A program made the translations under genes and the position numbers. A stretch of 64,000 bases of DNA from positions 4,077,568 through 4,141,567 of the forward strand of contig NZ_LT907982.1 of the NCBI RefSeq assembly GCF_900230215.1. Reading direction: 5' to 3'. Positions within the stretch are counted from its first letter, which is position 1, and each line of letters starts with the position of its first letter. Below the pieces are notes generated by a model that searched no databases, was not told where the DNA came from, and saw nothing but the letters and a program-made list of their open reading frames with translations. This stretch comes from Jatrophihabitans sp. GAS493 (GTDB lineage: Bacteria; Actinomycetota; Actinomycetes; Mycobacteriales; Jatrophihabitantaceae). Of this stretch, positions 28,468-54,489 are shown piece by piece.

Positions 28468-29693
28468 GCTCGTCGCCGCTGTTCGAAGGGCAGATTCTTC
28501 TCGGGATCGCTATCCCGGCTCAGCCCCAGCAGGCGTTCTCCGATGATGTTGCGCTGAATCTCCGACGTGCCGCCGGCGATGCTGATGGTCTTCATGGCCA
28601 GGAACTGCTGGACGGCATCCGGTGCCGGCCCACTCGTCGGCCAACCGACTATGGAGACCGGATCGATGTCACCGGCCAGCGTGCCGGCCCACTCATCGAG
28701 GTCAGCGTTGGCCAGCTTGCGTACCGACCCCTCGGCGCCGGGGGCCGAGTCCCCGGCTTCGGCGTGCGAGCGGATCGTCGTCATCTGCAGGACCTTCTCC
28801 GCCACATGCAGCCTTAGCAGTTCATCGCGCAGCACCGGTCGTTCCCAGGCTCCCGTGCGCTGGGCCAGTCCGGCCAGCGCGGCGGCCCGTCCCGGCCCGA
28901 CCGACGGACGCCCGCTGATGCCGTTACGTTCGGACATCAGGGTGCTGATGGCCACCGCCCAGCCGTTGTTCAATTCGCCGAGCAGCGCCTCCGTGGGAAC
29001 CACGACATCGGTGAGGAAGACCTCATTGAACTCGGCCTCCCCGGTCATCTGACGCAGCGGACGCGGCGTCACGCCGGCGGAGTGCATATCGAGCAGGAAG
29101 TAGCTGATCCCCTTGTGTTTAGGCAGGGTTGGGTCGGTGCGGGCCATCAGCAACCCGAAGTCGGAGATGTGCGCGAAGGAGCTCCAGACCTTCTGGCCGT
29201 TGACCAGCCACCCGCCCGCATCGTGCTCGACGGCCCGGGTCGACAGCGACGCCAGGTCCGATCCAGCGCCGGGTTCGCTGAAGAGCTGGCACCAGCGCTC
29301 CCGCCCCAGGGCCAACGGCGGGAGGAAGCGCTGCTTCTGCTCGTCGGTGCCCCACTGCAGAATGGTCGCGCCGGCGAGGGCCAGGCCGACGAAGTCGGAT
29401 TCCGGCCGGCCGGCCCGGTGGTCGGAGAGTGCCTCGGAGACACCGGCGGCCTGCTCTGGGGTGAGACCCAATCCGCGGTATTCGATCGGCCAGGTCGGAG
29501 TCGCCAGGCCGGCCTCACCCAGTTTGACGAACCACTCGGCGCTGCGCTGCTCGTCGGCCAGGATCGCGTCGACGAGCTCCCACTGCCCCAGTTCGGAGGC
29601 CTGCAGCCAGTCCTCGGGGAGATTGCCGGCCAACCAGGCCCGAGCGATCGTGGCGATCTCGGCCGCCGACGCGGCGGCACCGATCTCGATCAT
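28464..29693 (-). CDS. Acyl-CoA dehydrogenase, large-subunit type
   Basis: A 409-residue protein. CQLFSEPGAGSDLASLSTRAVEHD is the FAD motif and TISIAGGTSEIQRNIIGERLLGL the C-terminal motif. The usual catalytic Glu position reads Ala-Gly (IAGGTS), so a different residue must act as base, as in some heteromeric or long-chain dehydrogenases, or the activity depends on its partner. The likely partner is the small-type dehydrogenase that overlaps its start by ATGA. Together they would form an alpha2-beta2 enzyme. Confidence 0.88.
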   Translation of the reverse strand: MIEIGAAASAAEIATIARAWLAGNLPEDWLQASELGQWELVDAILADEQRSAEWFVKLGEAGLATPTWPIEYRGLGLTPEQAAGVSEALSDHRAGRPESDFVGLALAGATILQWGTDEQKQRFLPPLALGRERWCQLFSEPGAGSDLASLSTRAVEHDAGGWLVNGQKVWSSFAHISDFGLLMARTDPTLPKHKGISYFLLDMHSAGVTPRPLRQMTGEAEFNEVFLTDVVVPTEALLGELNNGWAVAISTLMSERNGISGRPSVGPGRAAALAGLAQRTGAWERPVLRDELLRLHVAEKVLQMTTIRSHAEAGDSAPGAEGSVRKLANADLDEWAGTLAGDIDPVSIVGWPTSGPAPDAVQQFLAMKTISIAGGTSEIQRNIIGERLLGLSRDSDPEKNLPFEQRRRA

Positions 29694-30814
29694 GCCGATA
29701 CCTCCTGCAGCAGAAAGGGTTCTAGCCGAGCTCGGTGCGCGGCCGGGTCACCCAGCAGGGCCTGGGTGGCCCGCGCGCGCCGCAGGAAGAGGTGGGCGTC
29801 GTGTTCCCAGGTGAACCCGATTCCGCCGTGCAGCTGAATCATGTCCTTCGCGGTCTGCAGGAAGGCCGGCCCGCAGTAGGCGGCGGCGACGCTCGCCCCC
29901 ATCGCGGCTGCTTCGCTGCCCGGTTGCTGCCAGGCGGCCCAGTACACCGCTGAGCGGGCCAGCTCGACCCGGACCGCCATGTCGGCCAGCCGGTGCTTCA
30001 CGGCTTGGAATGCCCCGATCTCGCGGCCGAACTGCCGCCGGGTGCGGGCATACTCGGCGGTGATCTCGGTGGCCCGCTCGCTGGCGCCGAGTTGCTCGGC
30101 GGCCAGGTAGATCGAGGAGTTGATCAGCATCTTCTCGATCGCCGATGCGCCGGCACCGGCGGCACCGATTCGGCGTCCGGGTGCACCGTCGAACTCCAGC
30201 GCGGCGATGGCGCGGGTCTGGTCGAGCACCGCCAGCGGGCTTCGCCGCACACCCTCGTCCGACTGGACAGCGAAGAGGGAGAGGCCGTCGGCCTCCCGCG
30301 CCGCCACGATCAGAACGTCGGCCTCGGCCCCGTCGAGCACCAGCGCCTTCGCACCCGAGATCCGTCCGCGGGCGTCAGCGGTCGCGCTCACCGCCGTGTT
30401 CAATGCCCGGTTGTCGAATCGTCCATCGGCCTCGACGACCGCCAGCGCCAGGGTCAGCTCGCCCTCGGCAACCGCCGGCAGCACCTCGTGGGCGTAGGCA
30501 TCGTCATCGGCGGCCAGGATCGTCTGAACCCCGAGGACGGCCGTGGAGAGGAACGGCCCGCCGAGCAGTACCCGCCCGGTCTCCTCGGCCACGATCGCCA
30601 ACTCGACCGGTGAAGCGCCGGCTCCCCCGAAGACCTCCGGGATGGCGAGGGACTGCAGCCCGGCCTGGCGGGCCAGGTCGCGCCACAGTTTCGGGTCATG
30701 ACGGGTTCCGGATTCGGCGAGGTCGCGGGCGGATCTCAGGGACGCGCGCGCTTCCAGCATCCGTCGCACGCTCGATCGCAGGCTGCGTTGTTCATCGGTC
30801 CAGGCGAACTCCAT
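29690..30814 (-). CDS. Acyl-CoA dehydrogenase, small-subunit type
   Basis: About 374 residues starting MEFAWTDEQRSLRSSVRRML. It ends with MIQLHGGIGFTWEHDAHLFLRRAR. It lacks FSEPGAGSD and the catalytic-Glu segment, the pattern of the non-catalytic or cofactor-sharing subunit of heteromeric actinobacterial dehydrogenases. It is the first gene of the nine-gene minus-strand operon. The ATG at 30814 is preferred to the only upstream alternative at 30940, although no good ribosome site is seen. A divergent promoter to the HpaB gene lies upstream. Confidence 0.85.
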   Translation of the reverse strand: MEFAWTDEQRSLRSSVRRMLEARASLRSARDLAESGTRHDPKLWRDLARQAGLQSLAIPEVFGGAGASPVELAIVAEETGRVLLGGPFLSTAVLGVQTILAADDDAYAHEVLPAVAEGELTLALAVVEADGRFDNRALNTAVSATADARGRISGAKALVLDGAEADVLIVAAREADGLSLFAVQSDEGVRRSPLAVLDQTRAIAALEFDGAPGRRIGAAGAGASAIEKMLINSSIYLAAEQLGASERATEITAEYARTRRQFGREIGAFQAVKHRLADMAVRVELARSAVYWAAWQQPGSEAAAMGASVAAAYCGPAFLQTAKDMIQLHGGIGFTWEHDAHLFLRRARATQALLGDPAAHRARLEPFLLQEVSA

Positions 30815-30994: not shown

Positions 30995-32374
30995 ATGATG
31001 ACAGGCGAGGAATACAAGGCCTCCCTCAACGACGGTCGCAAGATCTACTTCGAAGGCCGGCTGGTGGAGAATCAGGCGACTGAGCCTGCCTTCGCGGTTG
31101 CCGTGCAGGCCACCGCCGACGGGTACGACAAGTACTACACATCCGAGCCGGGCGCGGTGAATCCGATGGTTACCGCGCCGCGCAGCCAGGACGAGCTGCG
31201 CAGCCGGATTCCGATCCTTGTCGAATTGGACCAGGCCCTCAACGTCACCTACCAGTCACTGATGACGCTGCTCGTCGCCGCGCCTCGGATCCGGCCGGTG
31301 TCGCCTGAACTCGCGGAGCGGATCGAGACGTATGTCGAGGACGCCAAGCTGCGCGACATCCGGGTCACCGAGTGCATCACCGACGCCAAGGGCGATCGCA
31401 GTCAGTCTCCGATCGGGCAGGAGGATCCCGACGCCTATGTGCGGGTGGTAGAGCGGCGCGAGGACGGCGTAGTGGTCCGTGGGGCGAAGCTGCACATCAC
31501 CGCCGCCTCGCTCGGCCACGAGCTGATGGTCATGCCGACCAAGAAGATGAAGCCGGGCGAGGAGGAGTGGGCCATCGCCTGTGCCATCCCGGTGAACTCT
31601 CCGGGTGTGTCGATCATCAACACGACGAACGATCCACGCGGGCGTGACCGCCGCGACTATCCGGTCAGTGATCGGCTGGCCACCCCGGACGGTTTCGTGA
31701 TTCTGGACGACGTCTTCGTCCCCTGGGACCGGGTCTTCCTGGACGGGCAGGTGGAGCATGCCGCCGTCTTCGCCCACTCCCTGGGACTGTGGGAACGTCT
31801 GGGCGGAACGTCGTTCATGTGCGAGCAGGCCGACGAACTGGTTGGCCTGGCTCACCTCATCGCCGAGGCCAACGGGCTGAGCAAGGTGTCGCACATCCGC
31901 GAGAAGATCGACGAGATGATGATCCACGCGACCATGCTGCGGGCCGGACTGGAGGCCGCACTCTCCAAGGCTCACAAGACGCCGGAGGGTTACTACTACC
32001 CGGACGAGCTGTACACCAACGCCGTGAAATACCAGGGCGCGGCGAACTTCAACATGATGGTGCGCCACCTGCACGACATCGCCGGCGGCGGAGCGATCAC
32101 CGCGCCCTCCGTAGCCGACTTCGACAACCCGGCCACCGCGGCCTATGTCGAGAAGTACATGCAGGCGTACCCCGCCTTCTCCGGCCGCTATCGCACCCAG
32201 TTGTTCCATGCGATCCGCGACCTCACCGCTGACGCCCACGGCGGGTGGCACCTGGTCACCAACCTGCAGTCCGGCGGCGGCCTCTTCGCGCAGCGGCTGG
32301 TCACTCGCAAGCACTACGACATCGCGCGGGCCCGAGCGCTGGCCCTCAAGGTCGCCGGCATCAGCGGGGCCTGA
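30995..32374 (+). CDS. HpaB-family flavin-dependent hydroxylase (4-hydroxyphenylacetate 3-hydroxylase family)
   Basis: A 459-residue protein starting MMTGEEYKASLNDGRKIYFEGRLV. VTECITDAKGDRSQSP and VVRGAKLHITAASLGHELMVMPTKKM are the FAD- and substrate-site blocks of the HpaB/AbfD superfamily. The cluster cysteines of 4-hydroxybutyryl-CoA dehydratase (CxxxC and a later Cys) are missing, so an FADH2-dependent monooxygenase is more likely. No HpaC-type flavin reductase is nearby. A paralogue of the same length lies at 39355. It is divergent from the dehydrogenase operon. Confidence 0.82.
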   Translation: MMTGEEYKASLNDGRKIYFEGRLVENQATEPAFAVAVQATADGYDKYYTSEPGAVNPMVTAPRSQDELRSRIPILVELDQALNVTYQSLMTLLVAAPRIRPVSPELAERIETYVEDAKLRDIRVTECITDAKGDRSQSPIGQEDPDAYVRVVERREDGVVVRGAKLHITAASLGHELMVMPTKKMKPGEEEWAIACAIPVNSPGVSIINTTNDPRGRDRRDYPVSDRLATPDGFVILDDVFVPWDRVFLDGQVEHAAVFAHSLGLWERLGGTSFMCEQADELVGLAHLIAEANGLSKVSHIREKIDEMMIHATMLRAGLEAALSKAHKTPEGYYYPDELYTNAVKYQGAANFNMMVRHLHDIAGGGAITAPSVADFDNPATAAYVEKYMQAYPAFSGRYRTQLFHAIRDLTADAHGGWHLVTNLQSGGGLFAQRLVTRKHYDIARARALALKVAGISGA

Positions 32375-32428
32375 GGCAGTCCGCACATCCAGCGAGCACA
32401 TTTGCCCACCGGGCCGCACAATGTATCG

Positions 32429-33217
32429 GTGGACGGCCGGGGGCGTGCGGTAGGCGTTCGTCGCGGTCCGGTGCCGCTGTGGTCTGCGCTCGGCTTGGTG
32501 CTCGCCGCACCCGCGCTCACCTGGTGGGCGATCGGACCCATCGGCCGGCATTGGCCCGACCACGAGTTCGGGCCGTACCACGTGCCGCTCGGGCTGGAAC
32601 GAACCGTCGGCGTTGCCGCCGTCGTGATCGTCGCCGCTGCGGTCGTCGGCATCGCGGGGTCCTACCGTGGCCACCGGTCTGCCGAACGAGGCCCGACACG
32701 CTCAGCAACAGCATTGCTGGCTGCGGCGGGTGCGCTCGTCGCGGCCGCGTGGCGGGAGGAGACGGCCGGAGTTGTCGGCGCCAACATCGGCGGTGGACTG
32801 CTGCTGCTGGTCGGCCCAATCGCCATAGCTGCGCTGCTGGTCGCAGCCGTCCGTCTCGAACACCGCGCCCGCGGCGTGACAATGCGCCACCCACGGCTTC
32901 TCATCTGCCTTGCGGCGCTCACCGCGCCGGTGTTGTTCGTCGTGCCCGTCGGTCTGACCTCCTACGACCAGACGATCGGCGTCATCAGCGATCACGAATA
33001 CGCAACCCCGCAACCGGGCGACGCGCACAGCGAGGTCCGCGAGCGGCTCGGGCGGCCGCTGCGCGAGCCGGTTGACTGGCTCTTCGCGCCGACGCCGTCC
33101 GAAACGGCCTGCGAGTACTACGAAGGCCCGAGCTCGGGCATCGACCCGACGATCTACCAGTTCTGTTACCGCGATGAGCTTCTGGTATCCAAGCAGACCA
33201 GCCACGGCCCGCACTGA
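32429..33217 (+). CDS. Hypothetical integral membrane protein
   Basis: About 262 residues (GTG at 32429; a TTG at 32402 would add 9). Four hydrophobic segments are visible (WSALGLVLAAPALTWWA, VGVAAVVIVAAAVVGIAG, ATALLAAAGALVAAA plus GGGLLLLVGPIAIAALLVAAV, LLICLAALTAPVLFVVPVG). A roughly 75-residue extracytoplasmic tail follows with paired cysteines (ACEYYEG...YQFCYRDELLVSK). The tail resembles small outer-domain folds such as SmpA, but I do not assign it. There is no visible link to the catabolic genes around it. Confidence 0.65.
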   Translation: MDGRGRAVGVRRGPVPLWSALGLVLAAPALTWWAIGPIGRHWPDHEFGPYHVPLGLERTVGVAAVVIVAAAVVGIAGSYRGHRSAERGPTRSATALLAAAGALVAAAWREETAGVVGANIGGGLLLLVGPIAIAALLVAAVRLEHRARGVTMRHPRLLICLAALTAPVLFVVPVGLTSYDQTIGVISDHEYATPQPGDAHSEVRERLGRPLREPVDWLFAPTPSETACEYYEGPSSGIDPTIYQFCYRDELLVSKQTSHGPH

Positions 33218-33288
33218 CTCCCGCGGCAGATCGGCTCAGGTCTATATGTTCGGTCGGTCAGGTCGGGCTCGGTGCGCGGTGCCGCCGC

Positions 33289-34035
33289 TCAGGCCGGGAG
33301 GCTCTCGTGGGCGGTGTCAGCGAACTCGTTCGCCCCGAAGTAAGCCGACTCAACGCGGCCCTGCTCCTTGAGCAACTGGGCCGCACTGCCCTCGAGCACG
33401 ATTCGCCCGTGGTTGAGCACGATGGCCCGATCCGAGACCGACAGTGCCAGGGCAACGTGCTGCTCGACCAGGACGACCGCGATCCCCTCGTCCTTGGCCA
33501 GATCGCGAATACCGGGAAGCATTTCCTGGACGATGATCGGGGCCAGCCCGAGGCTCATCTCGTCGATCAGCAGGATCTTCGGCTCGGCCAGCAGCGCCTT
33601 GCCGATGGCCAGCATCTGCTGCTCGCCACCGGAGAGGAGACCGGCTTTGCGGGACTGCAGATTCCGCAGCGCGGGGAAGCGATCCAGCACGAACTGCTCC
33701 CGTGTCTTGCTGGGCTTGGCCCGAGCCATCCGGAAGTGCTCCCGCACGGTTAGGTCAGCGAAGACGCCGCGGTCGTCGGGCACCAGCATCAGCCCGGCCC
33801 GCACCAGCGACGTCGTGCGCCGCGAGGTGACCTCCCGGCCGAGGGCGGTGACCGAACCACCCATCAGGTCGATCAGCCCGACCATCGACAGCAGCGAGGT
33901 CGTCTTGCCCGCACCGTTCGGTCCGAGCAGGGCGATCACCTCGCCCCGCTCGACGGTGAGGGAGAAGTCACGGATCGCGGCCACCCGGTTGTAACCGGCG
34001 GTGATCGCATCTGCCTGCAGGACAACGTCAGCCAT
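33289..34035 (-). CDS. LivF-type ABC transporter ATP-binding protein
   Basis: About 248 residues starting MADVVLQADAITAGYNRVAAIRD. Walker A LLGPNGAGKTTSLL, signature LLSGGEQQMLAIGKALL, Walker B ILLIDEMSLGL and the H-loop VVLVEQHV are all intact. It powers the Liv-type importer with the second ATPase and the fused permease upstream. The ATG at 34035 overlaps the stop of livG by 8 bases. It is the last gene of the transporter operon. Confidence 0.9.
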   Translation of the reverse strand: MADVVLQADAITAGYNRVAAIRDFSLTVERGEVIALLGPNGAGKTTSLLSMVGLIDLMGGSVTALGREVTSRRTTSLVRAGLMLVPDDRGVFADLTVREHFRMARAKPSKTREQFVLDRFPALRNLQSRKAGLLSGGEQQMLAIGKALLAEPKILLIDEMSLGLAPIIVQEMLPGIRDLAKDEGIAVVLVEQHVALALSVSDRAIVLNHGRIVLEGSAAQLLKEQGRVESAYFGANEFADTAHESLPA

Positions 34036-34813
34036 GGTTCGCCTCAATCGGAACTCCGAGATAGGCCGCGATGACGGCCGGATCATTGCGAGCCTCGTCT
34101 GCGGTGCCCCGGAAAATCAGCTTCCCGAACTCCAGGACGTAGATCGTGTCGCAGACGCTGAGCACCAGGCCCATGTCGTGATCGATGAGCAGCGCTCCGG
34201 GACCGGTGTCGACGATGCGCCGGATACGTCCGGCGAACTCCTCGCTCTCGGCGCTATCCAGACCGGCCGCCGGTTCGTCCAGCAGCAGGGTGGAGCACCC
34301 GCCGGCCAGTGCGCGGGCGACCCCGACCAACTTCTGCTGCCCGAGCGTCAGGTCACCAGCCCGTACGCCGCCCGAACCGGGTAGTCCCACGATCTCGAGC
34401 GCTCGCTCGACCATCGCCGTTCCGGGATCGTGGCGCAGGAAGAGGTCGCGGAAGATGGTGGATGGTCGCGGTGGGCGCGCCCCGGCCAGGATGTTCTCGG
34501 CCACCGTCAGGCTGGCGAACAACTCCCCCGACTGCCAGGTGCGCGACAGCCCCGCGGCCCGGCGCTGATGCGGTCGTAGCGAATCGATCCGCCGGCCGCC
34601 CATCGAGATCTCCCCGCTGGCTTTCGCGAATCCGGTGAGCGCGTCGACGAAGCTGGTCTTCCCGGCACCGTTCGGGCCGATGAGCCCGACGATCTGCCCC
34701 GGTGGCACCGAGATCGACACGTCCTGGTTAGCGACCACGCCGCCGTAACGGACGGTGATGCCGCGGGCCTGCAGCCCGTCGGAGGAACTGGTAACCGGCT
34801 CAGTGCTGGACAT
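34028..34813 (-). CDS. LivG-type ABC transporter ATP-binding protein
   Basis: About 261 residues starting MSSTEPVTSSSDGLQARGITVRYGGVVANQDVS. Walker A IGPNGAGKTS, signature LTLGQQKLVGVARALAGG, Walker B TLLLDEPAAGL and the LivG C-terminal IRRIVDTGPGALLIDHDMGLVLSVCDTIYVL are present. The start overlaps the permease stop by 14 bases. It pairs with LivF as the nucleotide-binding heterodimer. Confidence 0.9.
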   Translation of the reverse strand: MSSTEPVTSSSDGLQARGITVRYGGVVANQDVSISVPPGQIVGLIGPNGAGKTSFVDALTGFAKASGEISMGGRRIDSLRPHQRRAAGLSRTWQSGELFASLTVAENILAGARPPRPSTIFRDLFLRHDPGTAMVERALEIVGLPGSGGVRAGDLTLGQQKLVGVARALAGGCSTLLLDEPAAGLDSAESEEFAGRIRRIVDTGPGALLIDHDMGLVLSVCDTIYVLEFGKLIFRGTADEARNDPAVIAAYLGVPIEANHG

Positions 34814-36824
34814 GCGCGGCACTCCTCTCAGCCGGAACCGGCGTACGCACCGGCTCGGTTGGCGGACTCAGCGGTGGGTGGCTGCTGCGCTCGGACATCC
34901 ACCGGCGGACCCAGTCGATCTGCCGGACGGTCTCGCCGGCGATGCCACTCGGGTTGATGATCGCGGTGAGGATCAGGGCCAGGCCGGAGATCAGCGCGTA
35001 GATGTTCCCGGTGTCCCAGATCTGGTTGATGATCGTGTAGACGATCCCGAGCGGGGCCAGGCAGCCGGCCACCGCCGCGCCGCCCCACGAGGTGATGCCG
35101 CCCAGGTAGGCGATCGCCAGCACCTGCAGGCCGACGAAGACGGTGAACGAGGCGGCCGACAGCTGCCCGTGCCCGTAGCCCAGCAGGCAGCCGGCGACCC
35201 CGGCGATGAAGGCCGAGAGCGCGAAGCCGATCAGCTTGGTGAAGCGGACGTTGATACCGGCCGACGCCGCGGCCCGCTCATTGGCCCGGACGGCCAGGAA
35301 GGCCCGCCCGAGGTCACCGGAGACGATACGGACGAAGAAGAGGACCACGATAACGGCGATGACCAGCACCATGATCGAGAAGGAGAGGCGGCTGACGTCG
35401 CGACCGGCCCGAATCGAGAAGTTGATACCGAAGAGGTGGGGATCGGCGATCGGATTCCCCTCGGCCGGAGTGAGGCTGTAGTTGTTGAAGACGAAGCGTT
35501 CGATGGCCAGCGCCGCGGCCAGCGTGACGATCGCCAACTGCGCACCGCGGATCCGTAGCGCCGGCAGCGCGACGATCACGCCCAGCGCCGAGGCGACGAG
35601 GGCCGAGAAGAGAATCGCCAGCGGGAACGGCCAATTCCAGTTCGTGGTCACCTTCGACAGGGCGAAACCGGCGGCACCGGCGAAGGCGGCCTGAGCCAGC
35701 GAGATCTGGCCGAGGTAGCCGGTGATGAGTACGTAGGAGAGCGCCAGCAGCATCATGACGATCGACGTCGTGAGCCCGAAGCGGTACACGCCGTTGGTCA
35801 GCGCCAGGCCGGCCCCGACAACGACGACCACGATCGTGGCCGGAATCGGGCGGATACGGGGAATCGTCACGTCAGGCAGCCGCATCGTCTGCAGCGAACC
35901 GCGGGAGGGCAGCCGCTTACCGATGGCGAAGAGGATGATCATGACGATGATGAACGGCACGACCTGATCGATTCCCGCGGCCGCCCACTTCGGCCACCAG
36001 GTGTAGGTGACCATGAACGTGAGGATCGACTGCAGCGCACCGAGCAGCAGACCGGCGATGGTGGCGACCACGATCGAGGACATCCGGGCGACGAGCATGA
36101 CCGCCAGCGCCGGCACGACGTAGAGCGTGTAGTTGGTCGGGTTGATGCCGGTGAGCGGGCTGGCCAGGATGACACCGATGGTGCTCAACGCCGAGGCGAG
36201 CACCAGCGCGACTCCGGCCAGGCGGTCCGGCGAGAATCCCATCAGAATCGCCGCGCGCTCGTTGTCCGAGGCGGCACGAGTGGCAACGCCGGCCCGGGTG
36301 AATCGCAGGTAGGCCCAGATGAGCGCCGACAGCACCACCATGACCGCCGCCATCAGGATCTCGGCCAGGGCGATCGGTGCGCCGAAGATGATGTACGTCG
36401 TGTCCGGCATGAGGGCGGGCACCTGGACGGTGTCCGAGCCGAAACGGATGATCACCAGCGCCTGCAGGGTGATCATGAGGGCCACCGACACGACCACCTG
36501 GGCCAGCGCCGGGGCGCGGCGGACGGGACGGAAGACCAGGTAGTGGACGAGGATGCCGACGAGCACTGCGGAGGCGATACCGATGGCCATCGCCGGCGCT
36601 GTGGTCATCGGCTGGTTTCCCAGTTGGATCGAGCCGATCGGCAGCACCAGCTTGCCGTCGATACGCAGCTGGGCGTAGACGTAGCCGCCCCACATGGCGA
36701 TGGCACCCATCGCGAAGTTGATGATGCCGGTCGCCCGGTAGACGAGCACGAGGCCGTTGGCCAGGCCGACGTAGATCGCGCCTAGCCCCAGTCCCAATAC
36801 TGCGAACTGCAGATACGTGCCCAT
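34800..36824 (-). CDS. Fused LivH-LivM permease of a Liv-type ABC importer
   Basis: This 674-residue protein combines two permeases that are usually separate. Residues 1 to about 290 are LivH-like (GAIYVGLANGLVLVYRATGIINFAMGAIAMWGGY). After a linker with RLPSRGSLQTMRLPDVTIPRIRP, about 320-674 are LivM-like (YVLITGYLGQISLAQAAFAGAAGFA and FLAVRANERAAASAGINV). It carries substrate across the membrane with LivF, LivG and the lipoprotein LivK. The ATG at 36824 has GGTAGGAG ahead of it. In this catabolic context it likely imports a carboxylic acid rather than leucine. Confidence 0.9.
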   Translation of the reverse strand: MGTYLQFAVLGLGLGAIYVGLANGLVLVYRATGIINFAMGAIAMWGGYVYAQLRIDGKLVLPIGSIQLGNQPMTTAPAMAIGIASAVLVGILVHYLVFRPVRRAPALAQVVVSVALMITLQALVIIRFGSDTVQVPALMPDTTYIIFGAPIALAEILMAAVMVVLSALIWAYLRFTRAGVATRAASDNERAAILMGFSPDRLAGVALVLASALSTIGVILASPLTGINPTNYTLYVVPALAVMLVARMSSIVVATIAGLLLGALQSILTFMVTYTWWPKWAAAGIDQVVPFIIVMIILFAIGKRLPSRGSLQTMRLPDVTIPRIRPIPATIVVVVVGAGLALTNGVYRFGLTTSIVMMLLALSYVLITGYLGQISLAQAAFAGAAGFALSKVTTNWNWPFPLAILFSALVASALGVIVALPALRIRGAQLAIVTLAAALAIERFVFNNYSLTPAEGNPIADPHLFGINFSIRAGRDVSRLSFSIMVLVIAVIVVLFFVRIVSGDLGRAFLAVRANERAAASAGINVRFTKLIGFALSAFIAGVAGCLLGYGHGQLSAASFTVFVGLQVLAIAYLGGITSWGGAAVAGCLAPLGIVYTIINQIWDTGNIYALISGLALILTAIINPSGIAGETVRQIDWVRRWMSERSSHPPLSPPTEPVRTPVPAERSAAHVQH

Positions 36825-36900
36825 GTGACTCCTACCTTGTCCTCGGTACAGCGGCTTGCTCGGAACGACTAGAGAGAAAGTGCCGGAAATACTGGAGGGT

Positions 36901-36933
36901 GCGGCTGCCGGCGGCGGGGACGCCGGCAGCCGC
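36901..36933 (-). terminator. 13 bp perfect hairpin between livK and the permease gene
   Basis: GCGGCTGCCGGCG (36901-36913) is perfectly complementary to CGCCGGCAGCCGC (36921-36933) across a 7-base loop. It starts 9 bp after the livK stop on the transcribed minus strand. There is no T tract, so it may act as an attenuator and mRNA stabiliser, giving more LivK than permease. Confidence 0.75.
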
Positions 36934-36941
36934 ACTCATCG

Positions 36942-38222
36942 TCAGGTGCTCGGGAGAACCGACGTGTCCAGGTCGAAGTAGCCGTCCGGCTCGCCGGGCT
37001 TGAGCGTCCCGTCCTTCTGGACGACGAAGTAGATCGCCTGGTGGCTGCACGCGGTCGGTGCACCCGGCCACTGCTTGCCGTCGCAGGTGATCTTTCCGCC
37101 GGCGAACATCTGCAGGTCCTTCACCTGGCTCATCGCGGTCGAGACCGCGCTGGCCGTGATGTCACCAGTGATTCCGTCCATGACCTGGGCCAGTGTTACC
37201 AGGCCGGCGAAGGAGTAGAGCGAACGAGCCGACTGCTCCCCCGGGTGTCCGGTGGCCTTCATCGACGCGGCGAACGCGTCGAGCTGCGCCTGAATGGCCG
37301 GCGGTGCGTAGGAACGCGAGCTCGGGATCCACAGCCGGGGCTGCGATACCGAACCGGCGGCCGACTCGCCCATCTTGGCTACGAACTGTGAGCAGGAGCC
37401 GGCGAAGATCGTGCCCTGGAAACCCTGGGCGCGAAGCGCGGTGAACAGCTTGGTGCAGCCGTCCTCGGAGAGGGCGATGATGCCGCCGACCTCGGGCTTG
37501 CTCTTCAGCTGGGCCGCGGCGGCAACCGTGTAGTTGACGCTCGTCTCGTCCAGATACTGAACCTGGACGTTGAGGCCCAGGTTCTTGGCGATCGGATTGA
37601 TCAGCGAGTTCACGTAGGTGTGTGTGGCCGGCGCATCGACGATGGCCAGCGAGGCGTTCGTCTTGCCCAGCTTCTTGATGATGGTCATCGAGCCGACCGC
37701 GCTGACCGCCGTCGGGCCCGTGAGGTAGAAGCCGAGCGGGTACGGCGTGGTGTCCATCAGGCCGGAGCCGGCCAGTGTGCCGACCACCGGAATCTTGGCC
37801 GCCATCAGAATCGGCTTCTCGCCGCCCATGCTGGTGTCGTAGGCGTCGAGGACCACCGGGTAGTTCTTCGAGACGAACCCGTTGGCACAGTTGACCGAAG
37901 TCTCGGGGCTGCCGTCACCGGCGCAGAGATCCACCTTCAGCTTGTGGCCGTTGATGCCGCCAAGCACGTTGTTGATGTAGTACTCGGCAGCCTCCACGCC
38001 GTAACCGGTCTGTGGGAACGCTGCCGCGCCGTTCATCGGGGCCTGGGCGCCGATGGTGATGGTCGAGCCGGTAGCGACCTTGCCGGCCGCCAGGCTTCCG
38101 GTGGACGCCGCGTTCGAACCAGAGCTACTCGTTGACGAGCTGCTGCAGCCGCTGACGACCAGAAGTGCGGTCACCGCAGCTGCGGCCACCGCCAACGATC
38201 TCTTTCTTTTGATGCGAAGCAC
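36942..38222 (-). CDS. LivK-type substrate-binding lipoprotein
   Basis: About 426 residues. SLAVAAAAVTALLVVSGC is a lipoprotein signal with lipobox VSGC, followed by a Ser-rich tether. The mature protein matches Peripla_BP_6 (GAQAPMNGAAAFPQTGYGVEAAEYYIN...GINGHKLKVDLCAGDG). It captures substrate outside the cell for the Liv importer. The GTG at 38222 with GGAGGAAC is the start; the extra upstream codons are the ribosome-site region. Its promoter region carries a perfect TTGGAG-N4-CTCCAA palindrome. Confidence 0.9.
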   Translation of the reverse strand: MLRIKRKRSLAVAAAAVTALLVVSGCSSSSTSSSGSNAASTGSLAAGKVATGSTITIGAQAPMNGAAAFPQTGYGVEAAEYYINNVLGGINGHKLKVDLCAGDGSPETSVNCANGFVSKNYPVVLDAYDTSMGGEKPILMAAKIPVVGTLAGSGLMDTTPYPLGFYLTGPTAVSAVGSMTIIKKLGKTNASLAIVDAPATHTYVNSLINPIAKNLGLNVQVQYLDETSVNYTVAAAAQLKSKPEVGGIIALSEDGCTKLFTALRAQGFQGTIFAGSCSQFVAKMGESAAGSVSQPRLWIPSSRSYAPPAIQAQLDAFAASMKATGHPGEQSARSLYSFAGLVTLAQVMDGITGDITASAVSTAMSQVKDLQMFAGGKITCDGKQWPGAPTACSHQAIYFVVQKDGTLKPGEPDGYFDLDTSVLPST

Positions 38223-38354
38223 CGTTCCTCCATATGAGTTGTCGAGCAATGCTGGAAAGTCCCAGCAATGTCAGGTCTGCGGGCCCGCTTTCCGCCGCTG
38301 GAGGTGAGCCTCTGCGCAGTGCAATGGACTGTCAACGAAGTGACTCAGGCCTCA

Positions 38355-38370
38355 TTGGAGCGGGCTCCAA
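38355..38370. promoter_or_regulatory. Perfect TTGGAG-CGGG-CTCCAA operator before the Liv operon
   Basis: The half-sites are exact reverse complements with four bases between. It lies 132 bp upstream of the livK start. The same palindrome recurs at 40814, 45781, 50520 and 56609. Confidence 0.7.
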
Positions 38371-38437
38371 ACGAATGTGTGAGGTTCGCGCGGTACCGAT
38401 GCGCAATCGACACAGGCGATACGCACAGCGATACTTG

Positions 38438-38461
38438 CCGACCCGCTGGCCGACCCGCTGG
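38438..38461. repeat. 12 bp tandem repeat CCGACCCGCTGG (two copies)
   Basis: Two exact adjacent copies in the livK upstream region, followed by a partial third. They lie beyond the operator from the gene's point of view. Confidence 0.8.
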
Positions 38462-38576
38462 GCGACACATCGGCCGGCTGGGGCGGGTAGAGGCACCGCC
38501 TGCGAGCGTTCTGGTGGACCTGATCGCCGAATGCGGCGGGCGCGGAATCAACCCGGTTGGAGAAAAGCTCAACCCT

Positions 38577-39329
38577 TTAGGTCTTGAGGTAGCCGCCATC
38601 GAGAACGATCGACTCACCGGTGTGGAAGATCTGGGTCGGGTCGGCCAGAAAAGCGGCCACCGCTGCAAAATCCTCCGACCGGCCAAATCGACCGAGCGGC
38701 GTGCGGGCCACGATCCGCCCGCGCAGCTTCTCCGAGGCCTGGCTGGTCAGGTCAGTGTCGACCCAGCCGGGCAGCAGCACATTGGAACGTATCCCGGCGC
38801 GGGCGTATTCGATCGCGATCGTCTGCATCAACGCGACCACCGCTGCCTTGCTCGCGCTGTACGGCGCGAAGTTGCGCATGCCGTGCCGGGCGGCGATCGA
38901 GGAGACGGCCACCAGCGCACCGCCCTCACCATGCTCGAGCATGTGCGCGACCGCGGCCCGCATCGTCGCGACCACACCGTCGACGTTCACCGCCATCACC
39001 CGGTGCCACTCCTCGGTGCTCTGCTCATGGAATGGTGCGGCGACCGAGGAGATACCGGCGTTGGCGAAGACCGCGTGTATCGGGCCGGCGCGCTCGATGG
39101 CCTGGGCGAACGCCAGCGCTACCTGCGTCTCGTCGCTGACGTCGCAGGCGAAGCTGTGCACCGCCACCCCGTGGACACCCAGCCGCTGCACGGCGGCGGC
39201 ACTGGCCACCTCGTCGCGGGCGAGGATCACCACCGCCGCCCCGGCTCGGGCAACGCCCTCGGCCAAGCCCAGGCCGATGCCCCGGTTCCCGCCGGTGATG
39301 ACCACCGTTCGACCGCTGAGCGAGGTCAT
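38577..39329 (-). CDS. SDR family oxidoreductase
   Basis: A 250-residue SDR: VVITGGNRGIGLG cofactor loop, FANAGI, and the active site VSSIAARH...PYSASK, then LLPGWVDTDLTSQA. A hydroxyacyl- or alcohol dehydrogenase acting with the adjacent HpaB-family gene is plausible. It begins 25 bp after the HpaB stop on the same strand, so the two form an operon probably driven from the operator at 40814. Confidence 0.85.
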   Translation of the reverse strand: MTSLSGRTVVITGGNRGIGLGLAEGVARAGAAVVILARDEVASAAAVQRLGVHGVAVHSFACDVSDETQVALAFAQAIERAGPIHAVFANAGISSVAAPFHEQSTEEWHRVMAVNVDGVVATMRAAVAHMLEHGEGGALVAVSSIAARHGMRNFAPYSASKAAVVALMQTIAIEYARAGIRSNVLLPGWVDTDLTSQASEKLRGRIVARTPLGRFGRSEDFAAVAAFLADPTQIFHTGESIVLDGGYLKT

Positions 39330-39354
39330 CTACGGCGACCCAGTTGCCGGCGGC

Positions 39355-40737
39355 TCATTCCTTCGGGCTCAACCCGGCCGCCTCACGGGCCATCGCCACC
39401 GACTCCTTCATCGGGTAGTGCTTACGGGTGACGATGCGCTGCGCATAGAGGCCGCCGCCGGACTGCACGTTCGTCACGTAGTGCCAGCCGCCGAAGGCAT
39501 CGGCGACCATGTCCCGGATGGCGTGCATGATCCGCAATCGGTCCTCCCCGGAGACGTCGGGGTTTCCGGTCATGTACTGACGGATATGCCCCTCGAGTTC
39601 AGGCAGTTCGAGGTCGCCGATCGTCGGCGCGGTCAGCACCGAGCCACCCGCGATGTCGATCAGATTCCGGGCCATCGTGTTGAACTCGGCCGCCCCGTGG
39701 TACTTCGCGGCGTTCGTGTAGAGCTCATCGGGGTAGACGAACCCGTCTTCGGTGCTACGCGCGTGCGCGATGGCCGCCTCGAGCCCGGAGCGCACCAGCG
39801 TGGCGTAGATGACCAGCTCGCTGATCTTCTCCTTCACGTGCGCGACCCGCCCCAACCCGTTGGCCTCGGAGACCAATTCGGCCAGCCCGACCAGCAGGTC
39901 GGCGTCATGAGCCATCTCGGCCACCCCGCCCAATCGCTCCCAGAGCCCCAGCGAATGCGCGAAGAGAGCGGAGAACTCCGTCTGCCCATCGAGGAAGATG
40001 CGCTCGTTGGGGACGAAGACATCGTCGAAGATCACGAAGCAATCCGGCATCTGCCGCTTGCGCGACATCGGGTAGTGACGGTCATCCTCACCCCGGAACG
40101 CGTACGTGGTGTTGATCGTCGACAGTCCCGGGGCGTTAGCCGGCACGGCACAGGCGATCGCGTAGTCCTCCTCGCCCGGCCCCATCTTCTTGGTCGGCAT
40201 CACGAAGAGTTCGTGGGCTAGTGATGCGCCGGTGATGTGCAGCTTGGCCCCCCGGATGACGACACCATCGGGGCGGCGCTCGACGACCCGCAGGTAGGCG
40301 TCGACGTCCTGCTGCTTGCTCGGCGAGAGCGCGCGATGGCCCTTGGCATCGGTGATGCACTCAGTCACGCGCAGGTCGTTGTCGGCCACGTAGTCCAGGT
40401 GGGCCCGTACCCGTTCGGCGTACTCCGGGTGCGCCGCCTGCAGCTGGGGCAGCACGGTGCGCAGGGTCATCACCGAGGTGAAGGTCGTGTGCGCCAGCAT
40501 GTCCACCCCGCGCAGCAGACCGACGATCTCGCGCAGCGCGGCCGCCGACCGCGGTGGGGCGAGCAGCGGATTACGCGCACCCGGATCGTCTGAGTAGAAC
40601 GTGTCGTAGCAGTCGGCGACCAGTCCGACGGCGATCCGGGTCGTCGGATCGGTCGTCAGGTCCTCGATCCGCCGCCCATCGATGTAGCTGACCCGACCGT
40701 CAGCAAGGGAATCCACATACTGTTTGCCACCGAGCAC
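39355..40737 (-). CDS. HpaB-family flavin-dependent hydroxylase, second copy
   Basis: A 460-residue paralogue of the protein at 30995, starting MLGGKQYVDSLADGRVSYIDGRRIED. It contains VTECITDAKGHRALSP and VIRGAKLHITGASLAHELFVMPTKKMGPGEEDYAIAC. Again the AbfD iron-sulfur cysteines are missing. Both copies may act on one pathway at different steps, since their divergence is considerable. The GTG start at 40737 follows AGAGGAG. The SDR at 38577 lies downstream in the same operon. Confidence 0.82.
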   Translation of the reverse strand: MLGGKQYVDSLADGRVSYIDGRRIEDLTTDPTTRIAVGLVADCYDTFYSDDPGARNPLLAPPRSAAALREIVGLLRGVDMLAHTTFTSVMTLRTVLPQLQAAHPEYAERVRAHLDYVADNDLRVTECITDAKGHRALSPSKQQDVDAYLRVVERRPDGVVIRGAKLHITGASLAHELFVMPTKKMGPGEEDYAIACAVPANAPGLSTINTTYAFRGEDDRHYPMSRKRQMPDCFVIFDDVFVPNERIFLDGQTEFSALFAHSLGLWERLGGVAEMAHDADLLVGLAELVSEANGLGRVAHVKEKISELVIYATLVRSGLEAAIAHARSTEDGFVYPDELYTNAAKYHGAAEFNTMARNLIDIAGGSVLTAPTIGDLELPELEGHIRQYMTGNPDVSGEDRLRIMHAIRDMVADAFGGWHYVTNVQSGGGLYAQRIVTRKHYPMKESVAMAREAAGLSPKE

Positions 40738-40832: not shown

Positions 40833-42461
40833 CTAAACGGCGCCGCCGCCGACGGCCGCAACCCCGGGGCTCCAGTCGGTGAGTTCGCGCTTGAGGACCT
40901 TGCCACTGGCGTTCTTCGGTAGCTCGGATACGAACCAGTACTCCGTCGGAACCTTGTACCGACCCAGATGCTCGTTGCTGTACGCGTAGAGCTCGGCGGG
41001 CGTGGTCTGGACGCCCGGCCGCACGACGACCCAGGCCCGCACCGCCTCGCCCCAGTGATCATCCGGCACGCCGACGACGGCGATCTCCGAGACGGCGGCG
41101 TGCTCGGAGAGGACGTGCTCGATCTCCAGCGGGTAGACGTTCTCGCCGCCGCGGATGATCATGTCGTTGGCCCGGCCGTTGAGCCAGAGATAACCCTCTT
41201 CGTCGAGGTAGCCGAGGTCACCGGCCCGAAACCAGCCGTCGCCGGGCAGTGACTGGGCACTGCGCTCGGGCATCGCCAGGTACCCGGACATCGTGCAGTT
41301 GTTGCGGGTCACGATCTCCCCCACCGTCCCGGTCGGCACGTCGTTGAGGTCCTCATCGCAGATGCGCATCTCGATGCCGACGCCGGGGCGACCCACCGAA
41401 CCGAGCAGCCGCTCCTCCCCGGCCGCGGCCCGGCGGTGATCGGCCGGGGTGAGCCAACTGGCCGATCCGTTCTCGGTCCCGGCTCCGAAGCAGTTGGTGA
41501 AATCGCACCCGAACAGCTCCATCGCCTCACGCAGCAGAGCCGGCGGCATCGGTGCGGCCCCGTAGCTGATGATGCGCAGCTGGTCGTAGTTCGCCTCGCG
41601 GGCCCCCGGCACGTTCATCACCGTCTGCAGCATGGTCGGGACCAGGAAGACCGCGGTCGGGCCGTCGGGCCGGGCCAGCCAGGACTGCACCTCAACCGGC
41701 TCGAACTGTTCGAGGAGCAGGATCGGGACGGCGAAGTAGATGCACATCAAGGTCTGGAAGTAGCCGGCCGAGTGAAACAGCGGCGACGAGGTGAGGTACA
41801 CGTCGCTGCGGCTCATCGACGTCTCGAGCAGTTGGACGATGCAGACCGAGTGGGTCATCCGGTAGGAGGTCTGCACGCCCTTCGGCATCCCGGTCGTCCC
41901 GCTGGTGAAGGCCAGAATCGCGATGTCCTCAGCTCCCGCCTGCTTGGGTGCGGGCTCGGCGTCCGGACGGCCGAGGAGCAGATCCTCGTAGAACCCGGCC
42001 TCCTCGGTCTTGCGGTCGAGACAGACGACGTGCTCGAGCGAGGCGTGCTGGTCCTGGATGCCGGCCAGCAGTTCGGTGTAGCGCCCCGAGTGGAAGAGCA
42101 CCTTCGGCTCACCGCGGGAGAGCAGCACGTCGGCCTCCCGCCGGCTGAGCCGGAAATTCAGCGGCATGAAGGTGGCGCCGAGCTTCAGGGTCGCCAGCAG
42201 CACCTCGACGTGACGCAGGCCGTCGGTCGCCATCGTCGCCACCCGGTCGCCGGGCCCGATACCCTGCTCGCGCAGCAGGTCGACGAGCTGGTTCACCCGA
42301 TGATTGAGCTGGTTGTAGGTCACCCGCCGGCCGTCGCCCAGGATCAGGGCCGTCGTGTCGCCGGCCCGCCGCGCCGCCAGGCGCAGCCAATCACCGGGCA
42401 GCACGTTGAACGAGGTGTAACTTCCATCGCCTTGGTAAGTCGTTATCGGTACCGATTGCAC
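40833..42461 (-). CDS. Acyl-CoA ligase (AMP-forming, FadD-like)
   Basis: A 542-residue adenylate-forming enzyme. ILAFTSGTTGMPKGV is the P-loop-like motif, YGAAPMPPALLREAM and FGAGTENGSASW the ATP pocket, GWFRAGDLGYLDEEGYLWL and RGGENVYPLEIEHVL the hinge blocks, and LPKNASGKVLKREL carries the catalytic Lys. It activates a carboxylic acid to its CoA thioester. It is the last of three related ligases transcribed leftward from 45691; the next gene up ends 27 bp before its start. Confidence 0.9.
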   Translation of the reverse strand: MQSVPITTYQGDGSYTSFNVLPGDWLRLAARRAGDTTALILGDGRRVTYNQLNHRVNQLVDLLREQGIGPGDRVATMATDGLRHVEVLLATLKLGATFMPLNFRLSRREADVLLSRGEPKVLFHSGRYTELLAGIQDQHASLEHVVCLDRKTEEAGFYEDLLLGRPDAEPAPKQAGAEDIAILAFTSGTTGMPKGVQTSYRMTHSVCIVQLLETSMSRSDVYLTSSPLFHSAGYFQTLMCIYFAVPILLLEQFEPVEVQSWLARPDGPTAVFLVPTMLQTVMNVPGAREANYDQLRIISYGAAPMPPALLREAMELFGCDFTNCFGAGTENGSASWLTPADHRRAAAGEERLLGSVGRPGVGIEMRICDEDLNDVPTGTVGEIVTRNNCTMSGYLAMPERSAQSLPGDGWFRAGDLGYLDEEGYLWLNGRANDMIIRGGENVYPLEIEHVLSEHAAVSEIAVVGVPDDHWGEAVRAWVVVRPGVQTTPAELYAYSNEHLGRYKVPTEYWFVSELPKNASGKVLKRELTDWSPGVAAVGGGAV

Positions 42462-42488: not shown

Positions 42489-44099
42489 TCAGGGCTGGAG
42501 GCGAAGCTCCCGCTTGAGGATCTTGCCGCTGGCGTTGGTGGGCAGGGCGTCGACGAATCGGAATTCCGCCGGCACCTTGAACTTGGCCAGCCGGGCAACG
42601 CAGTGTTCGCGCAACTCGTCGGGCGTGACGACCACACCTTGGCGAACGGTAACGAAGGCCCGCACGATCTCCCCCCAGTGCTCGTCGGCGACGCCGATCA
42701 CCGCGCTCTGCACCACCGCGGGGTGTTCGGCCAGCACGGTCTCGATCTCGCTCGGGTAGACGTTCTCACCACCGCGAATGATCATGTCCTTCTTGCGTCC
42801 GTGCAGATACAGGTAGCCGTTCTTGCCCACGTAGGCCATGTCACCGGCCCGGAACCAGCCGTCGCGGAAGGCCCGCGCCGTCTCCTCGGGCATGTCCAGG
42901 TAGCCGTCCATCAGCATGTCGCTGCGGGTGGCGATCTCGCCGACCTCGCCCACCGGGACGTCGTTCATGTCGTCATCCACCAGCCGGAACGCCACGCCGT
43001 GCGAGGGCTTGCCGATGGAACCGAGCAGCTCCGGCTCGCCGGCCATCGCCCGGCGATGGTCGGCCGCGGAGAGGACGGCCTGCAGGCCGGCCTCGGTGCC
43101 GGCGCCGAAGGCATTGATGAAGTCGCAGCCGAAGACGTCCATTGCCCGCCGCAGCAGGGTCGGTGACATGGGCGAGGCGCCATAGTAGATGCAGCGCAGG
43201 TTCCTCAGTTGCAGTCCGTCGACCTCTGGCCGCTGCAGCAGCATGCTGATCATGGTCGGCACCATGAACATCGCGGTGATCTCGTCCTTGACCAGGATCG
43301 GAAGGAGATCGTCCGGGCTGAACTGCGGCAGGATCAGCGACGTGAAGCCGTACCACACGCTGGCCAGCAGGGCGCAGACTCCGCTGATATGGAAGGTCGG
43401 GGCGGCGACGTAGCGCAGGTCGTCGGTACGCAGGTCGTAGTCGGCGATGTGCCCGGCGATCATCGCCTTGATCATCCGTTGGGACTGCACCACACCCTTG
43501 GGTAGCCCGGTCGTTCCGGAGGTGAAGGCCAATCCGATCGTGTCAGTGTCGGAGGAGACGACGGGCGGTTCGACGTCCACGCCGCAGGCCAGCAGTTGCG
43601 CATACTCGCTCTGCTCACCGTCACCGTCACCGTCGCCGTTACCGTCGAAGGCCACGTAGATCCGGATGCTCTCCACGGTGTCGGCGAAGCCGGCGAGCAG
43701 ATCGGCGTAGGCGGAATCGTAGAAGAGGGCGACCGGCTGGGCTCGTTCGATGAGCACCGCGACCTCCGGCCGGGTGAGGCGGTAGTTCAGCGGCACGTAG
43801 ACGGCCCCGAGTTTTAACGCGGCTAGCACAACCTCGATGTAGCAGTTGGAGTCGAGGGCGAAGACCGCGAGGCGATCCCCCTTCCCCACCCCACGGGCGG
43901 CCAGCGCTGACGCCAGTCGATTCACCCGCGAGTTGACCTCGGAGAAGGTCAGAAAAGACTGGTCCGGGAAGAGGAAGCAGGGCTTGTCGGGGTCACGGGC
44001 GGCGCTGAGGGGCAGCGCCTCACCAAGCGTGATTCGCAGGCTTGAGGCCAAGGCCGGGGTCGCCAGATACCCTCGGGCGGCATCCAAATTTTCAGTCAT
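42489..44099 (-). CDS. Acyl-CoA ligase (AMP-forming, FadD-like)
   Basis: A 536-residue protein with LAFTSGTTGLPKGV, YYGASPMSPTLLRRAM, FGAGTEAGLQAV, GWFRAGDMAYVGKNGYLYL and LPTNASGKILKREL. It is clearly a paralogue of its downstream neighbour. The stretch DGNGDGDGDGEQ near residue 150 comes from a hexanucleotide repeat and marks a surface loop. The start overlaps the upstream ligase stop (ATGA). Confidence 0.9.
   Translation of the reverse strand: MTENLDAARGYLATPALASSLRITLGEALPLSAARDPDKPCFLFPDQSFLTFSEVNSRVNRLASALAARGVGKGDRLAVFALDSNCYIEVVLAALKLGAVYVPLNYRLTRPEVAVLIERAQPVALFYDSAYADLLAGFADTVESIRIYVAFDGNGDGDGDGEQSEYAQLLACGVDVEPPVVSSDTDTIGLAFTSGTTGLPKGVVQSQRMIKAMIAGHIADYDLRTDDLRYVAAPTFHISGVCALLASVWYGFTSLILPQFSPDDLLPILVKDEITAMFMVPTMISMLLQRPEVDGLQLRNLRCIYYGASPMSPTLLRRAMDVFGCDFINAFGAGTEAGLQAVLSAADHRRAMAGEPELLGSIGKPSHGVAFRLVDDDMNDVPVGEVGEIATRSDMLMDGYLDMPEETARAFRDGWFRAGDMAYVGKNGYLYLHGRKKDMIIRGGENVYPSEIETVLAEHPAVVQSAVIGVADEHWGEIVRAFVTVRQGVVVTPDELREHCVARLAKFKVPAEFRFVDALPTNASGKILKRELRLQP
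43615..43647. repeat. Hexanucleotide repeat (GTCACC-type) in a ligase gene
   Basis: About five imperfect copies of a GTCACC-like 6 bp unit encode the acidic loop GNGDGDGDG. The frame is maintained. Confidence 0.8.
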
Positions 44100-47420: not shown

Positions 47421-47450
47421 GAGCAGAACAGGTCGGCGCAGGTTCTGCTC
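47421..47450 (-). promoter_or_regulatory. 9 bp hairpin between pucR-type regulator and caiC-like ligase
   Basis: GAGCAGAAC (47421-47429) pairs perfectly with GTTCTGCTC (47442-47450) over a 12-base loop. It overlaps the regulator's stop codon and ends five bases before the ligase ATG, in place of a Shine-Dalgarno. It may be an attenuator, a translation switch or a protein-binding site. Confidence 0.6.
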
Positions 47451-54480: not shown

Positions 54481-54489
54481 AGTGATCCC

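Follow-up and report, generated by a model that had tools for sequence, protein, structure and literature searches.

What do two HpaB-family proteins do inside a block of coenzyme A (CoA) genes that encodes no flavin reductase? This question is raised by a 64,000-nucleotide stretch of the genome of Jatrophihabitans sp. GAS493 (contig NZ_LT907982.1, positions 4,077,568 to 4,141,567; hereafter the window), which carries the genes here called HpaBl A (30995..32374, + strand, 459 aa) and HpaBl B (39355..40737, - strand, 460 aa). An earlier note, made from the DNA sequence alone, had reported two paralogues of about 460 residues sharing the blocks VTECITDAKG and KLHIT(A/G)ASL, lacking the iron-sulfur (Fe-S) cysteines of 4-hydroxybutyryl-CoA dehydratase (4HBD; AbfD) and standing apart from any flavin reductase or ring-cleavage gene. 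This description was borne out. The two products are 55% identical, both contain the two blocks, and the three cluster cysteines and the ligand histidine of AbfD are missing from both. PF01613, the flavin reductase domain, is absent from the window, and the two matches in the genome sit at 1.02 and 1.08 Mb, compared with 4.08-4.14 Mb for the window. No ring-cleavage dioxygenase, P450 or Rieske oxygenase was detected among 32 window proteins scanned with Pfam, a set without the Liv ATPases, the Liv permease, 51477-52799 and the small ORFs (open reading frames); for three ligases and four acyl-CoA dehydrogenases, the search used NCBIfam only. A weak phmmer match (28 bits) of a 103-aa ORF (32145-32453) to a P450 ORF of another genome (G178; G and L numbers are our identifiers for genomes and loci) was taken as an artefact, because this ORF lies over the end of HpaBl A in a different frame and the G178 query ORF likewise runs into its HpaBl gene.

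Both proteins match PF11794 (HpaB_N) and PF03241 (HpaB), with E-values of 1e-45 to 1e-64, and they are the sole HpaB-family genes found in the complete 4.88 Mb genome (two PF03241 matches, two protein matches). Scores for the NCBIfam equivalogs stayed at 173-185 of the 480 bits set as cut-off for HpaB-1 and at 96-103 of 885 bits for HpaB-2. For the Pfam family Acyl-CoA_dh_M, HpaBl B scored 20.3 of 33.3 bits and HpaBl A had no match at 0.001.

In phylogenetic trees, HpaBl is a distinct Fe-S-free lineage of the HpaB fold on the 4HBD side. Two midpoint-rooted trees were compared: one of 62 rows, from which 10 near-identical rows had been left out, and one of 76 rows, for which 20 of 72 earlier rows were dropped (including pl_Dietzia_L046, a long branch) and 24 added. 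The latter holds 27 HpaBl rows, fewer than the 36 HpaBl genes counted below; some later-found members were left out. Both trees resolved four groups, each delimited by a single branch: HpaBl, a second Cys-less group, 4HBD and the HpaB-type monooxygenases. The HpaB-type enzymes were split from the other three with support of 100/99 (62 rows) and 100/100 (76 rows), and HpaBl formed its own clade apart from 4HBD. Placement within a phenol-hydroxylase clade, the outcome that the earlier note had set against its own proposal, thus did not occur. The second Cys-less group was joined to 4HBD (99/98 and 98/93, respectively), although forcing the two Cys-less groups into one clade was not rejected (p-AU of 0.146), so the branching order of both groups relative to 4HBD is provisional. 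One row, X_L123, was assigned to no group; it represents a long-branch family member beside 4HBD (L123:1387-2934, G699) that has C99 and H292 and lacks the other ligands.

Searches and structure pointed the same way. 4HBD ranked first among solved structures both in phmmer searches with HpaBl A or B and with a 22-row profile (6vjr, 2.1e-76; 1u8v, 2e-70), ahead of Thermus HpaB (1.3e-57). The predicted structure of HpaBl A (mean pLDDT of 89.7) matched 6vjr with a Z-score of 43.1 (2.8 Å, 456 aligned) and 1u8v with 42.6, compared with 40.4 and lower for HpaB-type enzymes and about 24 for acyl-CoA dehydrogenases. This margin of 4HBD over the HpaB-type enzymes is small, and the tree is the stronger evidence. 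HpaBl and 4HBD also share a TDxKG block; their identity is 26-28%, and HpaBl is set in actinobacterial CoA gene blocks, unlike 4HBD. With the HpaB-type monooxygenases (HpaB, TftD, PnpA, HadA, SgcC), HpaBl shares the Pfam domains, the fold (Z of 36-40) and T or S at the flavin-side position T190.

The active-site residues were compared in the 76-row alignment (27 HpaBl, 14 4HBD, 22 HpaB-type and 12 second-group rows), with 1u8v numbering. The [4Fe-4S] ligands of 4HBD, C99, C103, C299 and H292, are present in 14/14 4HBD rows and in none of the 27 HpaBl rows, nor in any of the 23 HpaBl rows of an earlier alignment. At the H292 position, E267 of HpaBl, E occurs in 25/27 rows and Q in 2/27. Y296 and E455, to which Zhang et al. 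reportedly assigned a radical-forming role in 2015, are kept in 14/14 4HBD rows; in HpaBl, the former is replaced by G (26/27) or S (1/27) and the latter by T (25), S (1) or A (1). In the HMM (hidden Markov model) alignment, the place of E455 falls on a neighbouring HpaBl residue, which again is not an acid.

Conversely, six residues tie HpaBl to 4HBD. H188, R293 and K370 are found in 27/27 HpaBl and 14/14 4HBD rows as compared with 0/22 HpaB-type rows; T394 occurs in 27/27, 14/14 and 1/22, respectively, while N367 is present in 27/27 HpaBl and 1/22 HpaB-type rows and D386 in 25/27 and 3/22. Our guess is that these six residues touch CoA. The second Cys-less group has the same six (D386 in 11 of 12 rows) and no cluster cysteines, and unlike HpaBl it keeps H292 (12/12) and K300 (11/12, with R in one). 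As read from the alignment, the residues form a graded series from HpaB-type through HpaBl and the second group to 4HBD. Since the cluster cysteines are confined to the 4HBD clade, except for the lone C99 of X_L123, they can be explained by one gain on the 4HBD stem, provided that the root is not on that stem. A view of HpaBl as a degenerate AbfD was thus rejected; under the same proviso, the parsimonious reading is that the missing cysteines of HpaBl do not represent a loss.

HpaBl proper is sporadic. Counting the present genome each time, it was found in 4/61 relatives, 4/396 genomes across the phylum and 12/397 genomes of the order (the last for rows of at least 292 bits). All 15 loci with a named host belong to Actinomycetota; the hosts are Pseudonocardia, Actinomadura, Microtetraspora, Rhodococcoides, Nocardiopsis, Acidimicrobiaceae and two less exactly named metagenome-assembled genomes, a partial list since the scan of genome contigs used two peptide patterns. 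Acyl-CoA dehydrogenase genes lay within 8 kb of HpaBl in 23/32 other loci (18/20 in a first set and 5/12 in a further set), versus 3/20 comparison stretches hand-picked at round coordinates in five genomes. For ligase genes, the corresponding values were 24/32 (16 of the first 20, 8 of the 12) versus 1/20. The first 20 loci had been found partly by likeness to HpaBl A, many of the 12 further loci are other sub-clades or second copies, and the near-identical L005 and L006 were counted separately.

The conserved neighbours differ between sub-clades. HpaBl A belongs to an A-type sub-clade with Pseudonocardia and other genomes. After the A-type gene come those for a substrate-binding protein, LivHM, LivG and LivF at eight of the first 20 loci (L004-L010, L016) and also in G702; G750 has the Liv genes next, and the substrate-binding protein stands behind them. 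Homologues of an acyl-CoA dehydrogenase pair and of the ligase at 42489 are often divergent on the other side, as in the window. HpaBl B forms its own sub-clade (86% to L012, 85% to G500), and B-type genes sit with homologues of the ligase at 40833 and of the short-chain dehydrogenase/reductase (SDR) at 38577. Because A-type and B-type homologues elsewhere have these separate neighbour sets, the window looks like two HpaBl modules side by side, A with the dehydrogenase pair, the Liv genes and FadD 42489, and B with SDR 38577 and FadD 40833. A second paralogue occurs near the A-type gene about 4 kb away in G051 and as a direct neighbour in G702 and G750; it belongs to another sub-clade than HpaBl B. 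In the latter two genomes, the adjacent paralogues of different sub-clades lie between acyl-CoA dehydrogenase and Liv genes (L137:8598-12154 and L139:8812-12381, respectively) and may act together or in sequence. The link of HpaBl to CoA metabolism stands, and it is strongest for the A-type and the dioxygenase-type clusters described below.

The earlier note had suggested that these proteins hydroxylate a CoA-bound or aliphatic compound. The CoA-bound substrate gained support from the 4HBD-side placement, the six residues and the loci with dehydrogenases and ligases; judged from these comparisons, HpaBl would act on CoA thioesters. Hydroxylation stands only as the leading reading. We infer the CoA thioester substrate, a ring within it, an O2-dependent hydroxylation and the identity of the reductase, and the chance is nearly even that HpaBl carries out a two-component, FADH2- and O2-dependent hydroxylation of a CoA-bound ring or enoyl system with a reductase acting in trans. 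In such a pathway, the Liv transporter would import bulky, probably ring-bearing acids, FadD-type ligases would activate them to CoA thioesters, and heteromeric acyl-CoA dehydrogenases would desaturate the acyl-CoA. A separate reductase would supply reduced flavin in trans, which with O2 would form a hydroperoxide on HpaBl, and this hydroperoxide would hydroxylate the CoA-bound ring or enoyl group. The product could then pass to a dioxygenase, where present, or to a beta-oxidation-like cleavage. Hydroxylation is favoured because members of the second Cys-less group are coupled to a reductase and because dioxygenase genes neighbour some HpaBl genes; the absent reductase is the main point against it.

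Flavin reductase ORFs were sought within 1.5 kb of each family gene. One was found for 0/36 HpaBl, 0/25 4HBD-type, 2/13 second-group and 11/22 HpaB-type genes. HpaBl thus differs from the HpaB-type genes (Fisher, 3e-6) and resembles 4HBD. For this count, 15 duplicate or near-identical loci and scores below 120 bits were left out, X_L123 was placed among the 25 4HBD-type genes, and the 36 HpaBl genes were counted by hand as 51 rows minus repeats of one place and gene halves; flanks were short in some loci (L008, L011, L105). Some seeds of the reductase HMM came from HpaB-type and second-group loci; phmmer with the seeds L102, L103 and L107 alone found reductases at the same HpaB-type loci. Reductases exist somewhere in 20/20 HpaBl host genomes tested, but also in 13/14 controls, and they lie about 26-35 kb from HpaBl in G051 and G454. 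The missing neighbour was rejected as proof of any reading, as 11/22 HpaB-type genes and 25/25 4HBD-type genes also stand without one; for the same reason, the absence fits a non-oxygenase equally well.

The second Cys-less group comprises plasmid proteins of R. opacus PD630 and R. pyridinivorans and those of L054-L059, L102, L103, L111, L112 and L122. At two Pseudonocardia loci, a Cys-less protein, an HpaC-type reductase and an acyl-CoA ligase are encoded in a row (L102:9635-13223 in G454 and L103:7593-11654 in G456). According to mechanical ORF ends, the Cys-less gene overlaps the reductase ORF by 4 bases in both, and the ligase ORF follows with a 4-base overlap in L102 and 76 bases on in L103. 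The reductase ORFs match PF01613 with 2.5e-43 and 1.8e-42. From the overlap and the ligase, it follows that a Cys-less protein of the 4HBD side probably works with reduced flavin beside a CoA ligase, and the trio is a candidate CoA-thioester monooxygenase system. CoA genes were recognised near 5 of 6 second-group loci inspected (L038, L039, L102, L103 and L112), and none in L111.

Dioxygenase neighbours provide the second argument. In G354, L013, L014 and L015, genes for an acyl-CoA dehydrogenase, a cupin resembling homogentisate dioxygenase and an alpha/beta hydrolase come after HpaBl, and a ligase gene is close by. The iron-ligand residues His, Glu and His can be seen in these cupins. In G553, a full HgmA (scores of 391.9 and 234.3 bits) and an FAA hydrolase share a strand with HpaBl, an acyl-CoA dehydrogenase pair and a P450-like gene. 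Its single-strand order (L142:3518-12446) of FAA hydrolase, HgmA, P450-like gene, regulator, HpaBl and dehydrogenase pair suggests a joint ring-degradation operon. A weaker homogentisate-dioxygenase-like gene lies near HpaBl in G178. Overall, 6 of the 28 PF20510 matches in 25 genomes, each in a different genome, lay no more than about 4 kb from HpaBl. About 0.08 would be expected, calculated with 150 Mb, a rounded figure, and 37 HpaBl genes, an assumed number; counted as three independent cases, the matches still give about 8e-5. At those loci, the dioxygenase-like genes point to a ring in the substrate. The two PF20510 matches of the present genome, at 1.39 and 2.29 Mb, are far from the window, so the ring-cleavage context is only indirect here.

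Several further observations weigh against hydroxylation of a CoA-bound ring by HpaBl. The reductase-coupled relatives are a different group, in which H292 and, in most members, K300 are retained, and a reductase adjoins just 2 of its 13 genes. The dioxygenase association stems mostly from one conserved cluster (4 of 6), the window itself lacks a ring-cleavage gene, and P450 genes near HpaBl in G178 (by Pfam) and in L017 and G553 (by similarity only) could hydroxylate there. In addition, 7 of the 12 further HpaBl loci have no acyl-CoA dehydrogenase within 8 kb; L105, L110 and L140 have neither dehydrogenase nor ligase, and in L110 a carboxyl-transferase gene stands immediately upstream of HpaBl.

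The strongest alternative, which we regard as a serious though somewhat less probable reading, is that HpaBl works on CoA thioesters as a flavin enzyme independent of O2. Its bound FAD would then move or abstract hydrogen on the acyl chain, in a redox-neutral shift or elimination (such as double-bond isomerisation or gamma-elimination) or in a desaturation linked to electron-transferring flavoprotein, with E267, in place of H292, as acid/base. The position beside 4HBD in both trees, the lack of a reductase near 36/36 genes as in 4HBD, the residue at E267 (E in 25/27, Q in 2/27) and the dehydrogenases near 23/32 loci would all suit such an enzyme. An analogy may be BbuA, the gamma-butyrobetainyl-CoA trimethylamine lyase, for which flavin-only C4 elimination on a CoA thioester has been described; this enzyme belongs to the acyl-CoA dehydrogenase family and has hardly any identity to 4HBD (PMC8364193). 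However, the reductase-adjoining members of the second Cys-less group, the dioxygenase-like genes adjoining HpaBl and the replacement of E455 by T, S or A speak against this alternative.

An ordinary two-component phenol hydroxylase of the 4-hydroxyphenylacetate 3-monooxygenase type with its reductase elsewhere is improbable. The Pfam matches and the two PF01613 genes elsewhere in the genome would allow it, but HpaBl lies outside the HpaB-type clade and far under the NCBIfam cut-offs. Moreover, R100, Y104 and H142, substrate-binding residues of HpaB according to PMC10816480, have no equivalents in 27/27 HpaBl rows: R100 is gapped or another residue, Y104 is V, T, I, L or A, and H142 is E, Q or F. 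SgcC (4oo2), by its PDB title an HpaB-type hydroxylase of carrier-protein-bound beta-tyrosine, offers a precedent within the fold for a thioester-bound substrate; unlike HpaBl, it belongs to the HpaB-type clade and has the R-Y-H triad.

Even less probable is a non-catalytic subunit of an acyl-CoA dehydrogenase complex, despite dehydrogenase genes near 23/32 loci that sometimes overlap HpaBl (G148, L017, G354): 9/32 loci have none within 8 kb, and the long stretches conserved across 22 orthologues suggest an enzyme. That HpaBl is itself 4HBD is hardly credible, as C99, C103, C299, H292, Y296 and E455 are replaced or missing in 27/27 rows, although the nearest solved structures are 4HBDs. By tree and residues, HpaBl is therefore neither a phenol hydroxylase nor a 4HBD.

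The genes around HpaBl A and B encode a Liv-type ABC transporter, four acyl-CoA ligases and, in addition to acyl-CoA dehydrogenases, SDRs, crotonases, thiolases and a CoA-transferase. The dehydrogenases include two duplicated pairs at 22008-30814, all on the - strand. Pair 1 consists of a large-subunit-like (28464..29693; NCBIfam pimC_large, 1.5e-60, under cut-off) and a small-subunit-like protein (29690..30814; IpdE2, 1.1e-54, under cut-off); homologues of the former adjoin A-type HpaBl, and the latter gene overlaps its partner and runs divergent from HpaBl A. In pair 2, the small-subunit-like protein (22008..23129) is 43% identical to 29690-30814, and the large-subunit-like ORF (23880..25319; PF02770, PF00441), whose true start is probably further inside, is 40% identical to 28464-29693. 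PimCD and IpdE2 are the nearest curated names, but they were rejected with scores far under the cut-offs and merely hint at a heteromeric dehydrogenase of a bulky or dioic acid.

Between HpaBl A and B, likewise on the - strand, lie genes labelled by sequence reading as LivF-like (33289..34086) and LivG-like ATPases (34028..34822) and a fused LivHM-like permease (34800..36935), followed by a Liv-type substrate-binding protein (36942..38249; PF13458, 5.3e-24) and an SDR (38577..39329). Homologues of the LivF-like protein with 61-65% identity stand by A-type HpaBl in eight loci, and those of the SDR near relatives of HpaBl B (65% in L012, 58% in G500). The four acyl-CoA ligases (40833..42461, 42489..44099, 44096..45691 and 45802..47415, all -) include one with homologues near HpaBl B relatives (the first; 79% in L012, 76% in G500), one with homologues near A-type HpaBl (the second; 60-69%) and one with a PF00501 match (the last). 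An NMO/FabK-like FMN enzyme (20948..21883, -; PF03060), a possible further redox partner of the pathway, has homologues of 65% identity close to the A-type clusters in G702 and G750. A GAF and PucR-type regulator (47449..49521, -; PF01590, PF13556) follows the ligases. Further CoA genes (52940..59907) comprise crotonases (52940, 55712, 57861), an SDR (53719), thiolases (54490, 56643) and a type III CoA-transferase (58744-59907).

Two other features were observed. At 25070-28467, Pfam identified an acyl-CoA dehydrogenase (27289), an APH-type kinase (26318), a DUF6285 protein (25968) and an SDR (25070) in this order. By gene order, set against the described Lva roles only, this resembles LvaC-LvaA-LvaB-LvaD, which serves 4-hydroxyacyl-CoA phosphorylation according to PMC6692424; the DUF6285 protein as LvaB counterpart is a guess. 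An ORF of 3748 aa (8090-19336, -) with 28 DUF7507 and 9 DUF11 stretches probably encodes a large surface protein.

Two archaeal carbon-fixation cycles and clostridial fermentations have 4HBD as a key enzyme. To our knowledge, the origin of its radical machinery within an oxygenase fold is an open question. Two Fe-S-free groups on the 4HBD side, one with reductase-adjoining members, make this origin testable. It is possible, though somewhat doubtful, that the path from an HpaB-type flavin oxygenase to 4HBD is still represented by two surviving intermediates, HpaBl and the second Cys-less group, and that HpaBl hydroxylates CoA thioesters as a member of the 4HBD lineage. The CoA-thioester signature (H188, R293, N367, K370, D386, T394) would then have come first, as in HpaBl, and H292 and K300 next, the stage seen in the second group; the cysteines, Y296 and E455 would have been last. 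If this is true, the 4HBD lineage would hold O2-using as well as radical enzymes.

In searches of open-licence full texts, no paper was found that by title or text passage concerned the Cys-less proteins of the 4HBD side. Database labels on their genes can mislead. The R. opacus PD630 plasmid member, which has neither the Fe-S ligands nor the phenol triad, is recorded as '4-hydroxybutyryl-CoA dehydratase' in one place and as '4-hydroxyphenylacetate 3-hydroxylase N-terminal domain-containing' in another. HpaBl is a new variant in the HpaB/4HBD superfamily and probably works on CoA thioesters, and HpaBl A and B probably represent a kind of enzyme not described before for the breakdown of bulky acids.

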